Source of the DNA: Salinivirgaceae bacterium
Lineage (GTDB): Bacteria; Bacteroidota; Bacteroidia; Bacteroidales; SZUA-534
Length of the DNA stretch: 64,000 bases
Assembly: GCA_024405635.1 (NCBI GenBank)
Contig: JAKSOL010000005.1
Coordinates: 62,001-126,000, forward strand
Direction: 5' to 3'
This document shows, one piece after another, positions 2,854 through 61,609 of this stretch. The notes beneath the pieces were generated by a model that made no database searches, was not told the origin of the DNA, and saw only the letters and a program-made list of their open reading frames with translations. The translations under genes and the position numbers were made by a program. Every line of letters starts with the position of its first letter. The stretch's first letter is position 1.

Positions 2854-4395
2854 ATGTTAATAGATAAAAAATTATTGGATGAAGTTTCAAGTATAGCTAG
2901 TACTAACGAGAGATTACGAAAGAATTTTAATCTCCACGATTCGTTAGATGCGCCCTCGCAACGACTATTGAACGCATTGGAGCCTGGCACTATCATTCCC
3001 ATTCATCGGCACGAGAATACAAGTGAAACTTATGTCATTTTGCGTGGTAAAATAAGATTGACATTATATAATGATTCTGGAATAGAGACAGAATCGCATG
3101 TTTTATGCACTGAAAATGGCAACTATGGATTTAATATTTTAAGAGGTCAATGGCATTCGCTTGAAGTATTGGAGCATGGTTCAGTAATATTTGAGGTAAA
3201 AGATGGTCCATATACGCCATTGTCTGCCGACAATGTATTATCTTCTTTTGAGACAAAGAAACACATTATCCACCTATGTCTAGCCCACATGAGTGGCGAT
3301 GAGCAGAAATACATACAGCAGGCTTTTTCAGACAATTGGGTAGCTCCATTGGGGCCTAATGTCGATTTGTTTGAATCGATGCTTGAAACGTGGTATGGCA
3401 ACAATACTCATATTGCAGCATTGGCATCTGGCACGTCGGCAGTACATTTGGGATTGCTGCAATTGGGTGTGCAGCCTGGTGATGAAGTTATTTGCCAAAG
3501 TTTCACTTTCTGTGCCTCAGCCAATCCCATTACTTATTGCGGAGCTAAGCCAATTTTTGTTGATTCAGAGCCCGAAACGTGGAATATGTCGCCCGAATTG
3601 TTGGAGGAAGCAATAAAAGACCGAATTGAAAAAACTGGCCGTAAACCTAAAGCAATTATCCCTGTCCATTTGTATGGCATGCCAGCCAAGATGGATGAAA
3701 TTCAGTCTGTTGCCCAAAAATATGACATTGCTATAATGGAAGATGCTGCCGAAGCACAAGGTTCGCAATACAAAGGCAAACTTTGTGGCACATTTGGCGA
3801 GTTTGGCGCAATGAGTTTCAACGGAAACAAGATGATTTCCACTTCTGGTGGAGGTGCGTTAATCTGCAAAAGCGCAGAGGCAAAAGCAAAAACCATTTTC
3901 TATGCCACTCAAGCTCGTGAGCCACATGCCTATTATGAGCATAAAGAAATAGGCTACAACTATAGGTTAAGCAATATTTGTGCAGGCGTGGGTTGCGGAC
4001 AGATGTCAGTTTTGGACGCTCACATTGCTCATCACCGTCATGTGCACAATATGTATGTCGATTTGTTGGCAGATGTAAATGGTATCAAAGTTCATTCTAA
4101 TCCAAACGACAAGTACAATTCAAATTATTGGCTTACCACAATTTTAGTGGATTCAGCAAAATTCGGAATAGATAGTTCAGATTTGAATCTTAAGTTAAAC
4201 TCTTTAGGTATCGAATCCCGTCCACTATGGAAACCAATGCATCTTCAGCCTATATATAAAAATGCACCTGCGTATGTAAACGGTGTGAGCGAGAATTTAT
4301 TTAAACAAGGATTGTGCTTACCGTCAGGACCTTGCGTTACAGACAATGACGTGAAGTATATTGTTAGAATAATTAAAGAATCTATAATTAGATAG
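2854..4395 (+). CDS. Fusion: WbuC-like cupin + DegT/DnrJ/EryC1 sugar aminotransferase
   Basis: This is a 513-residue two-domain protein. Residues 1 to about 125 form a cupin of the WbuC type (AIIPIHRHENTSETYVIL-like metal-binding core: PIHRHENTSETYVILRGK, then QWHSLE). Residues about 130-513 are a PLP-dependent DegT/DnrJ/EryC1/StrS aminotransferase, with SGTSAVHLGL, the PVHLYG and EDAAEAQGS strands and the Schiff-base lysine in SFNGNK (K326). The aminotransferase would convert a keto-sugar nucleotide to an amino sugar. The cupin may act on the same sugar or on another part of the locus. The gene starts 2 bp after the WecA-like stop and ends the operon before a hairpin. Cupin and aminotransferase are normally separate genes, so the fusion is noteworthy. 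Confidence 0.85.
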   Translation: MLIDKKLLDEVSSIASTNERLRKNFNLHDSLDAPSQRLLNALEPGTIIPIHRHENTSETYVILRGKIRLTLYNDSGIETESHVLCTENGNYGFNILRGQWHSLEVLEHGSVIFEVKDGPYTPLSADNVLSSFETKKHIIHLCLAHMSGDEQKYIQQAFSDNWVAPLGPNVDLFESMLETWYGNNTHIAALASGTSAVHLGLLQLGVQPGDEVICQSFTFCASANPITYCGAKPIFVDSEPETWNMSPELLEEAIKDRIEKTGRKPKAIIPVHLYGMPAKMDEIQSVAQKYDIAIMEDAAEAQGSQYKGKLCGTFGEFGAMSFNGNKMISTSGGGALICKSAEAKAKTIFYATQAREPHAYYEHKEIGYNYRLSNICAGVGCGQMSVLDAHIAHHRHVHNMYVDLLADVNGIKVHSNPNDKYNSNYWLTTILVDSAKFGIDSSDLNLKLNSLGIESRPLWKPMHLQPIYKNAPAYVNGVSENLFKQGLCLPSGPCVTDNDVKYIVRIIKESIIR

Positions 4396-17515: not shown

Positions 17516-17538
17516 CAAACAACATACTATAAACAAAT

Positions 17539-17569
17539 AGCCCCGATAAGGAGATTCTTTATCGGGGCT
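17539..17569. terminator. Bidirectional terminator between convergent genes
   Basis: AGCCCCGATAA (17539-17549) pairs perfectly with TTATCGGGGCT (17559-17569). It lies between the plus-strand MFS-PlsC gene and the minus-strand pyridoxal kinase gene. Confidence 0.85.
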
Positions 17570-17592
17570 GTTTATGTTATTGATAATTGTTA

Positions 17593-18465
17593 CTATTTAG
17601 CTTGAGCAGCCAAACGGTTAATCAACATTGGGAATGCAGTTTCAAAATCGACGCCATAATTATTGTGTGGTTCATGAGAAAGAGTTTGCTTAATTGACTC
17701 AACCACAAAATCGCCAGCAAGGGCATACGAGTCGTGCAACGATAGGCCACGCATCATGGCGCCAGTAAGAACGCTGGCAAAAATATCGCCAGTGCCATGG
17801 AAACTTTGCGATTGTTTTTCGTGGAAATACCAATCAATTTCGCCAGTTGTTGAATCAAGCGATGCAATACCAATTTTTCCTACCACGTTGCTCAATCCAG
17901 GTTGCTCGGCATCAAAAACTACGCCTTTAAGCACAACTTTTTTTGCACCAAGAGCAGCAAGTTTGTGCAACACATCTTTAACATATTCAACATTGTAACC
18001 GCTTGCAACGTAAGGAGTTTGCAACATAAACGAAGCCTCAGTAAGGTTTGGTACAACAATATCGGCTTTTGAGCAAAGTTTTGCCATTTCAAGCGCAAAT
18101 TCTTGGGTAAAGCCAGGATAAAGGCTTCCATTGTCGGCCATACATGGGTCAATAACCTTAAGAGCACCTTCGGCACCAAATTTGTCAATAAACTCGCTCA
18201 TAAGGTTCAACTGTTCAAACGAGCCAAGGTAACCTGTGTAAATTGCATCGAATTTAATTCCCTCGTTAAGCCAATGTTCCCAAATTGGGCGAATTTGGTC
18301 GGTAAGGTCATCAAATGTAAAACCTTTGAACATGGTGTGAGTTGACAATACGGCGGTTGGGATTATTGCGGTTTCGACACCCATTGCCGAAATGATTGGC
18401 AATGCAACTGTAAGCGAGCATTTGCCTACGCACGATACATCTTGAATAGTTACAATTCGTTTCAT
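17593..18465 (-). CDS. pdxY: Pyridoxal/pyridoxamine kinase (PdxY/PdxK type)
   Basis: This is a 290-residue ribokinase-fold enzyme that phosphorylates pyridoxal, pyridoxamine or pyridoxine with ATP in the PLP salvage pathway. The start reads TIQDVSCVGKCSLTVALPII, the usual beginning of Bacteroidota pyridoxamine kinases. The anion hole and catalytic Asp are in FHGTGDIFASVLTGA. A substrate-lid segment (TVLSTHTMFKGF-like; here AVLSTHTMFKGFTF) is also present. A TAATTTTG box at 18493-18500 lies 27 bp upstream, so it is a single-gene transcript. The symbol is by family resemblance; PdxK and PdxY cannot be separated by eye. Confidence 0.85.
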   Translation of the reverse strand: MKRIVTIQDVSCVGKCSLTVALPIISAMGVETAIIPTAVLSTHTMFKGFTFDDLTDQIRPIWEHWLNEGIKFDAIYTGYLGSFEQLNLMSEFIDKFGAEGALKVIDPCMADNGSLYPGFTQEFALEMAKLCSKADIVVPNLTEASFMLQTPYVASGYNVEYVKDVLHKLAALGAKKVVLKGVVFDAEQPGLSNVVGKIGIASLDSTTGEIDWYFHEKQSQSFHGTGDIFASVLTGAMMRGLSLHDSYALAGDFVVESIKQTLSHEPHNNYGVDFETAFPMLINRLAAQAK

Positions 18466-60507: not shown

Positions 60508-60538
60508 TACATTCGCGCCGTTAAAACGCAACAAAACA

Positions 60539-60586
60539 ATGACACGATTTTTCACACACTTCTTTTTCTTCTTTACCCAACAGTAG
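60539..60586 (+). CDS. pheL: Phenylalanine-rich attenuator leader peptide
   Basis: The frame ATG to TAG encodes 15 residues, MTRFFTHFFFFFTQQ, with seven Phe codons, five of them consecutive (60560-60574). It is too short to be a metabolic enzyme. It sits 100 bp upstream of pheA, where the ribosome would stall at low Phe-tRNA. The last base of its stop codon is the first base of the antiterminator stem. It works like enterobacterial pheL, but the sequence is not related. No other start codon is more likely. Confidence 0.85.
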   Translation: MTRFFTHFFFFFTQQ

Positions 60587-60628
60587 AGCGGGATTTGACG
60601 TGTGTTAACAAGATATCGAATCCCGCTC
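60586..60628 (+). promoter_or_regulatory. Antiterminator stem of the phe attenuator
   Basis: GAGCGGGATT (60586-60595) pairs perfectly over 10 bp with AATCCCGCTC (60619-60628). Its right arm is the left arm of the terminator. A ribosome parked at the leader's stop codon would cover the left arm, whereas one stalled at the Phe codons would leave it free. Confidence 0.8.
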
Positions 60629-60646
60629 AAAAGGCGGGATTTTTTG
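60619..60646 (+). terminator. Attenuator terminator upstream of pheA
   Basis: AATCCCGC (60619-60626) pairs with GCGGGATT (60634-60641), loop 7 nt. T residues follow (60640-60645), then G and four more T. Confidence 0.85.
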
Positions 60647-60685
60647 TTTTGGTGTACAAAAAGTTTGAAGTAATTATCACTAAAT

Positions 60686-61528
60686 ATGAAACGAATTGTT
60701 ATTCAAGGAATTAAGGGCTCGTTCCACGACATTGCAGCCCACAAATATTTTGAAAACGAAGACATTGAGATTGTTGCTTGCGACACCTTTCCAAAAGTGT
60801 TTAATAAACTAAAAAACGACAATAGCGCACTTGGTCTTGTAGCCATTGAAAACACCATTGCCGGCAGTTTGCTTCAAAACTACAACCTGCTAACCAACAG
60901 CGGTTTGCGCATTGTTGGCGAGCACAAACTTCGCATAAAACACAACCTTGTAGCCAAAGCAGGTCAAAAGTTGAGCGACATTACCGAAGTGTACTCGCAT
61001 CCTATTGCTTTGATGCAGTGTGGCGAGTTTCTTGACGACCACACCAACCTTAAAGCCATTGAGTACAACGACACCGCATCGAGTGCAAAAATGATTGCCG
61101 AAACCAATAGTCTTGGCAAAGCTGCCATTTGCGGCGAAGAGGCTGCTAAATTGTATGGGCTTGAAATACTTGAACGTGGTATTGAAACCAACAAACACAA
61201 CTTTACACGTTTTCTTTTGTTGAGCGACCCATGGATGACAGAGGAAATGACCAAAGGCAAAAACATAAACAAAGCCACATTGGTTCTTGTTTTGCCTCAC
61301 GAAGAAGGTTCGCTTGCTCAAATTTTGTCGGTATTATCGTACTACAAAATGAACTTAACCAAAATTCAGTCCATGCCTATTATTGGTCGCGAGTGGGAAT
61401 ATCAGTTTTACGTTGACTTAAAGTTTGACAGCTATTTGCGCTACAAACAATCGATAGACGCAGTTACTCCACTCACCAAAGAGTTGCGCATTATGGGCGA
61501 GTACGAAGAAGGTAAACAAACCGTGTAA
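60686..61528 (+). CDS. pheA: Prephenate dehydratase
   Basis: This is a 280-residue enzyme that turns prephenate into phenylpyruvate for phenylalanine synthesis. The catalytic domain starts IQGIKGSFHDIAAHKYF and has VAIENTIAGSL, YSHPIALMQC and the TRF motif in KHNFTRFLLL. A C-terminal ACT domain (ATLVLVLPHEEGSLAQILSV) gives allosteric feedback; its site, ESRP in many homologues, reads IQSMP here. It has no chorismate-mutase domain, unlike the E. coli protein. It is a single gene, with an attenuator ahead and a terminator after. Confidence 0.96.
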   Translation: MKRIVIQGIKGSFHDIAAHKYFENEDIEIVACDTFPKVFNKLKNDNSALGLVAIENTIAGSLLQNYNLLTNSGLRIVGEHKLRIKHNLVAKAGQKLSDITEVYSHPIALMQCGEFLDDHTNLKAIEYNDTASSAKMIAETNSLGKAAICGEEAAKLYGLEILERGIETNKHNFTRFLLLSDPWMTEEMTKGKNINKATLVLVLPHEEGSLAQILSVLSYYKMNLTKIQSMPIIGREWEYQFYVDLKFDSYLRYKQSIDAVTPLTKELRIMGEYEEGKQTV

Positions 61529-61554
61529 CTGGTTATTATTTAACCATATAAAAA

Positions 61555-61582
61555 AAGTGTCGGGCTAAAAACTCGGCACTTT
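61555..61582 (+). terminator. pheA terminator
   Basis: AAGTG-CG pairs with CG-GCACTT (one G-T wobble), followed by T residues. It may also serve the minus-strand gene beyond. Confidence 0.75.
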
Positions 61583-61609
61583 TTTTTATTGTCAAAAACT
61601 CAATCATTT

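Follow-up and report, generated by a model that had tools for sequence, protein, structure and literature searches.

The closest described counterpart of the locus studied here is the enterobacterial pheL-pheA attenuator, whose leader peptide in E. coli has 15 residues, 7 of them Phe. Leaders of the ilvL and thrL type carry codons for several end products of one operon. According to a survey published in 2010, Proteobacteria and Actinobacteria were, to its authors' knowledge, the only groups in which leader-peptide systems had been demonstrated; the survey extended the list to Firmicutes (PMC2965389). Within Bacteroidota, a map of B. thetaiotaomicron mentions, in general terms, short ORFs reminiscent of leader peptides (PMC7366714). 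The transcriptome of Flavobacterium psychrophilum revealed structured 5' elements at pheA and hisG that are conserved in Flavobacteriaceae, and the available part of that paper also reports clues for leader-peptide attenuation of amino-acid operons (PMC9723704).

Here we analyzed the region ahead of pheA in a stretch of 64,000 nucleotides from a Salinivirgaceae genome (the window, by which we mean this whole stretch). The region is very probably a transcription attenuator of the classical type, with three hairpins and a translating ribosome as the sensor of charged tRNA-Phe. Judging from comparison with relatives, it appears to be one branch of a conserved family of aromatic-amino-acid attenuators of the class Bacteroidia.

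Leader ORF and alternative hairpins ahead of pheA

The features of the locus, all on the + strand of the window, are as follows.

60508..60515 (approximate), +, possible Bacteroidota -7 promoter element TACATTCG, about 24 nt 5' of the leader ATG
60539..60586, +, leader peptide ORF MTRFFTHFFFFFTQQ, 7 Phe among 15 codons
60560..60574, +, five consecutive Phe codons (TTC TTT TTC TTC TTT) within RNA region 1, where the ribosome would stall
60554..60605, +, predicted hairpin 1:2 (protector or pause hairpin), 52 nt, pairing ACACAC with GTGTGT and the Phe codons with the stop codon and region 2
60586..60628, +, predicted antiterminator hairpin 2:3, arms 60586-60595 and 60619-60628
60618..60645, +, predicted intrinsic terminator hairpin 3:4 with T run, 60618-60627 pairing with 60633-60642
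60686..61528, +, pheA, prephenate dehydratase of 280 aa, the gene under proposed control

Direct reading of the sequence gives an ATG at 60539, the codons M T R F F T H F F F F F T Q Q and a TAG stop at 60584-60586. A run of end-product codons thus lies in a short ORF just ahead of the gene to be regulated, as is characteristic of attenuators, and scanning both strands of the window revealed no second run of five TTY codons. The candidate promoter element was called on the basis of TAnnTTTG, which we take to be the Bacteroidota -7 consensus; the genome has TACATTTG at a similar distance ahead of its his and trp leaders.

Computation recovered three mutually exclusive pairings downstream of the start codon. 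Arm 2 of the antiterminator, GAGCGGGATT (60586-60595), has the last base of the TAG stop as its first base and is the exact complement of arm 3, AATCCCGCTC (60619-60628); RNAfold lengthens this stem to 13 pairs. Arm 3 is common to both structures, being the right arm of the antiterminator and the left half of the terminator, so that an antiterminator and an intrinsic terminator exclude each other as attenuators have it. The terminator ends at 60645, and 40 bp separate it from the ATG of pheA at 60686. Compared with 200 dinucleotide shuffles, none was as good as hairpin 2:3 (-22.1 kcal/mol, z -5.8), two were as good as hairpin 3:4 (-13 kcal/mol, z -3.3) and none was as good as the whole leader (z -6.5). 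Hairpin 1:2, which overlaps the control codons, is likewise stable when its own stretch is shuffled (-17.4 kcal/mol, z -4.3, 0/200 shuffles as good), and it reaches z -2.4 (1/60) when everything from the ATG to arm 3 is shuffled. When the leader is folded as a whole, the structure of lowest energy consists of exactly hairpin 1:2 and the terminator.

These pairings suggest the following course of events. The leader would be transcribed by RNA polymerase with a ribosome following behind. Were Phe-tRNA scarce, the ribosome would stall in the Phe run and cover region 1, region 2 would stay free to pair with region 3, the terminator would be blocked and pheA would be transcribed. With ample Phe, the ribosome would reach the UAG at 60584 and cover region 2, so that region 3 would pair with region 4 and transcription would stop ahead of pheA. 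If the leader were not translated at all, hairpin 1:2 would form, region 3 would be left to region 4 and transcription would stop too. A ribosome at a stop codon protects about 13 nt downstream, and this footprint was assumed in folding. A ribosome set on the Phe run leaves RNA that is predicted to fold into 2:3, one positioned on the stop codon leaves RNA that folds into 3:4, and the ribosome-free leader folds into 1:2 plus 3:4.

A first, sequence-only reading of this locus had described the 15-codon ORF with seven Phe, five of them in a row, a perfect 10-bp stem starting from the stop codon, and the reuse of the right arm of that stem by a terminator with a T run 40 bp before pheA. The ORF was correct to the base and both descriptions of the stems were borne out. 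On the other hand, its view of the locus as a minimal version of the switch that can do without a pause hairpin is not supported, given the stable hairpin predicted at 60554-60605. That hairpin, together with the folds obtained with a placed ribosome, points to the classical 1:2 / 2:3 / 3:4 design and not to a reduced one.

The same leader and stems might instead control mainly the initiation of pheA translation, or act through another sensor such as a T-box or a protein. About 40 nt lie between the end of the 3' arm and the start codon, and termination is here a prediction from the sequence, both of which would suit this explanation; however, the pheA start region is covered by no arm, and the hairpin with its T run has the form of a textbook intrinsic terminator. 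At the leader position, an Rfam scan up to E 1 returned leader-peptide families and no others, which also speaks against another sensor; the T-box was considered and rejected. We hold this explanation to be extremely improbable and retain transcription attenuation as the reading of the locus.

Conservation and covariation among relatives

Relatives were collected by similarity to the window pheA, in a sample that includes metagenome-assembled genomes, and leaders were called with a simple score (an ORF in which 6 or more of 10 residues are aromatic). An aromatic leader ORF was found upstream of pheA in 236 of the 268 distinct Bacteroidota loci sampled, and no leader was recognised at the other 32. 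Within a first sample, all 29 usable loci of the same order carried an aromatic leader. In the full set, a leader was called at 20/20 Bacteroidia loci from other orders and at 3/20 loci outside the class. Among the upstream regions of other ORFs from the same loci and the window, which served as controls, 14/857 (1.6%) scored as leaders, and one of these 14 (L066) has the look of a true pheA leader, placed at a greater distance upstream of the gene. A search of a plasmid collection returned no useful relative.

The position of region 2 differs among these leaders. Many relatives have it within the last leader codons, for example KVEREFV with GTAGAGCGGGAG in Bacteroides, and the window has it just past the stop (GTAGAGCGGGAT), the motif being the same. 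The stem-arm complementarities are weak in three relatives with a solo pheA (L175, L216 and L230). Two of the 32 leaderless loci (L261 and L164) belong to relatives of the species with Phe-only leaders L174 and L260; in both, the element has been lost and pheA has moved to a place close behind the end of another reading frame.

Covariation and gaps were analyzed in an alignment of 51 leaders. Two-sided changes affected 9/10 pairs of stem 2:3 (46 cells versus 14 expected by shuffling) and 8/10 pairs of stem 3:4 (52 cells versus 14.5 expected, with 95% of cells paired). The covariation score of each stem was reached in 0/500 shuffles, and sliding the pairing partners abolished the signal in both. 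Several triple changes run across all three arms, such as G-C-G to A-U-A, which means that both alternative stems have been kept. Hairpin 1:2 shows moderate conservation, with 88% of the cells of its inner helix paired across the 51 relatives, and weak covariation. Within the leader's reading frame, each of the 57 gaps has a length divisible by 3, and gaps beyond it vary freely in length. Gaps that keep the frame are indirect support for translation of the leader.

A covariance model (R1) was built from the pheA leaders of 43 relatives, with the window left out. Its best match in the window was the window leader, over the full model length (61.8 bits, E 1.2e-11). Genome-wide, the full-length strong matches were the pheA leader and a leader ahead of tyrA-aroF (62.6 bits), with no others, and partial matches of 20-34 bits, scattered over the genome, were terminators of the same shape. 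Weak matches on both strands at 17518-17603 of the window cover the terminator part only, and this stretch is probably a two-way terminator.

These data also bear on the explanation that the hairpin merely terminates the upstream unit, rnhB, and that the Phe run is a chance product of a T-rich low-complexity stretch. The region is indeed T-rich, terminators of this shape are common enough to give the scattered R1 matches above, and no + strand terminator besides that of the leader was found between the end of rnhB (60171) and pheA. Yet this terminator sits 450 nt past rnhB, and the leader ORF, arm 2 and the terminator are kept together before pheA in dozens of families. The in-frame gaps and triple changes argue in the same direction, and covariation already contradicts the explanation, which we regard as highly improbable beside an attenuator of pheA.

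Leader codons and operon content

Most relatives have pheA as the first gene of an operon that also contains aroF and/or tyrA, often in the order pheA-aspC-aroF-tyrA as in Phocaeicola vulgatus, and the leader there mixes Phe and Tyr codons. In the window, no aspC, aroF, tyrA or other pathway gene follows pheA and the next gene is convergent. The junction between the two (61512-61608) contains a stretch of inverted repeats with a weak score for the Rfam sRNA family AaHKsRNA41 on both strands, far below threshold, and is probably a two-way terminator.

A solo pheA (without aspC, aroF or tyrA) was found at seven leader-bearing loci, the window and six others. The run held fewer than two Tyr at all seven of these and at least two at 167/168 loci with partner genes (Fisher p 9e-12, uncorrected for kinship). 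Four changes of the solo state map onto the pheA tree, and the leader turns Phe-only in 4/4 phylogenetically independent comparisons; with four pairs alone, the sign test (p 0.125) cannot reach significance. The nearest pheA relative of the window (L031, 66% identical, pheA-aroF) has a mixed leader. Leader codons thus change with the controlled genes, which is evidence for amino-acid sensing drawn from sequence alone.

The alignment of related pheA upstream regions proposed in the sequence-only reading agreed with it on the aromatic run and on both stems, 2:3 and 3:4, which are kept and covary; the run of most relatives consists of Phe and Tyr rather than of Phe alone. Its central claim is that pheA is under ribosome-mediated Phe attenuation. 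Conservation of the codon run, reading frame and mutually exclusive stems lends this claim strong support, as does the way in which codon content follows operon content.

The genome of the window carries tyrA and aroF together on another contig, with a leader of their own, and has further leaders ahead of other biosynthetic genes.

L142 3937-4069, contig C6, Tyr/Phe leader MNNTFGYYAFYYYFFYNN, homologous to the pheA leader, before tyrA-aroF/chorismate mutase and following genes
L172 1200-1320, contig C34, His leader MNNTLHHHHHHCNSSR containing six consecutive His codons, with a terminator, ahead of hisG
L173 ~2480-2620, contig C6, Trp leader MNLLNNKYWWRRSRQQ containing two Trp codons side by side, with a terminator, ahead of the trpB-A-E-G-D-C-F cluster

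The Tyr/Phe leader is followed by an antiterminator and a terminator of the same kind as at pheA. The pheA and tyrA-aroF halves are separate in this genome, each with a leader matched to its product. Aromatic leaders also stand at tyrA in the solo-pheA genomes G056, G477, G501, G637, G650 and G694. Tandem aromatic leaders with terminators, MLTNYTYSYFFYWFYRL and MITSSFYYFWNYYYLFY in L270 (12-260), precede one tyrA operon in L270 and L272 (minus strand, 3191-3437), and may act as two serial attenuators that read Tyr, Phe and Trp.

The leaders could also be nascent-peptide arrest sequences or small membrane peptides rather than codon-counting devices. They are very hydrophobic and aromatic, and the motif YFYFYF recurs among them, as one might expect of such peptides. 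Against this, their sequence and order vary, the kind of amino acid tracks the controlled genes, and the His and Trp leaders of the window genome obey the same rule. We consider a function of the peptide itself very unlikely, and continue with codon-based attenuation.

The simplest reading of these patterns would be that there was one ancestral attenuator for Phe and Tyr, that splitting or copying of the operon took the attenuator along, and that each copy lost the codons it no longer needed. We lean towards a broader version of this history. Bacteroidia would share one ancestral attenuator whose single leader reads Phe and Tyr (sometimes Trp), a lack of either opening the operon; upon separation of pheA from tyrA/aroF, selection would have rewritten the codons, giving daughter switches of narrowed specificity. 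Operon splitting is in this respect a natural experiment, and it yields direct predictions that can be tested in Bacteroides.

Comparison with known systems

The window was compared with the Rfam family of enterobacterial leaders, RF01859 (Phe_leader), which scored 30.4 bits (E 0.046 in 6 kb). This is below the gathering score of 55 bits, and the window leader is thus no member of RF01859 by Rfam's rule. Seven related loci searched against Rfam matched no family at gathering level. Our literature search found no paper on a Phe/Tyr leader in Bacteroidota; Lopatovskaya et al. 2010 (a survey of attenuation in bacteria) or the supplements of PMC9723704 may list some such leaders. The sequence-only reading had remarked that less is known of leader-peptide attenuation for Bacteroidota. 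This is right in part, but the F. psychrophilum paper already describes such 5' elements, at both pheA and hisG, along with clues for attenuation (PMC9723704). Like the window, those elements are structured, transcribed 5' regions at the same gene in the same phylum; unlike the present analysis, the available part of that paper contains no sequence model, codon content, Bacteroidales or split operon.

The mechanism is textbook, and the family matches no Rfam model and has so far only been hinted at in print. Given the textbook mechanism and the earlier hints, what is new is the class-wide family and the tracking of operon content by codon content. Textbook attenuation appears to be a standard arrangement for aromatic biosynthesis in Bacteroidia, and in the window genome also for His and Trp. 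Bacteroidia are a major gut and environmental class in which this device has barely been described, and the device is absent from Rfam.

The window shares with the pheL-pheA system of E. coli and other enterobacteria a short Phe-rich leader, hairpins 1:2, 2:3 and 3:4, an intrinsic terminator and pheA downstream. Unlike in pheL, region 2 starts inside the stop codon. The window leader is related by sequence to other Bacteroidia leaders; kinship to pheL would be conjectural. Bacteroidia leaders resemble those of the ilvL and thrL type in that one leader reads several amino acids, here Phe and Tyr and sometimes Trp, and differ from them in that the Tyr codons are absent where the operon lacks aroF/tyrA.
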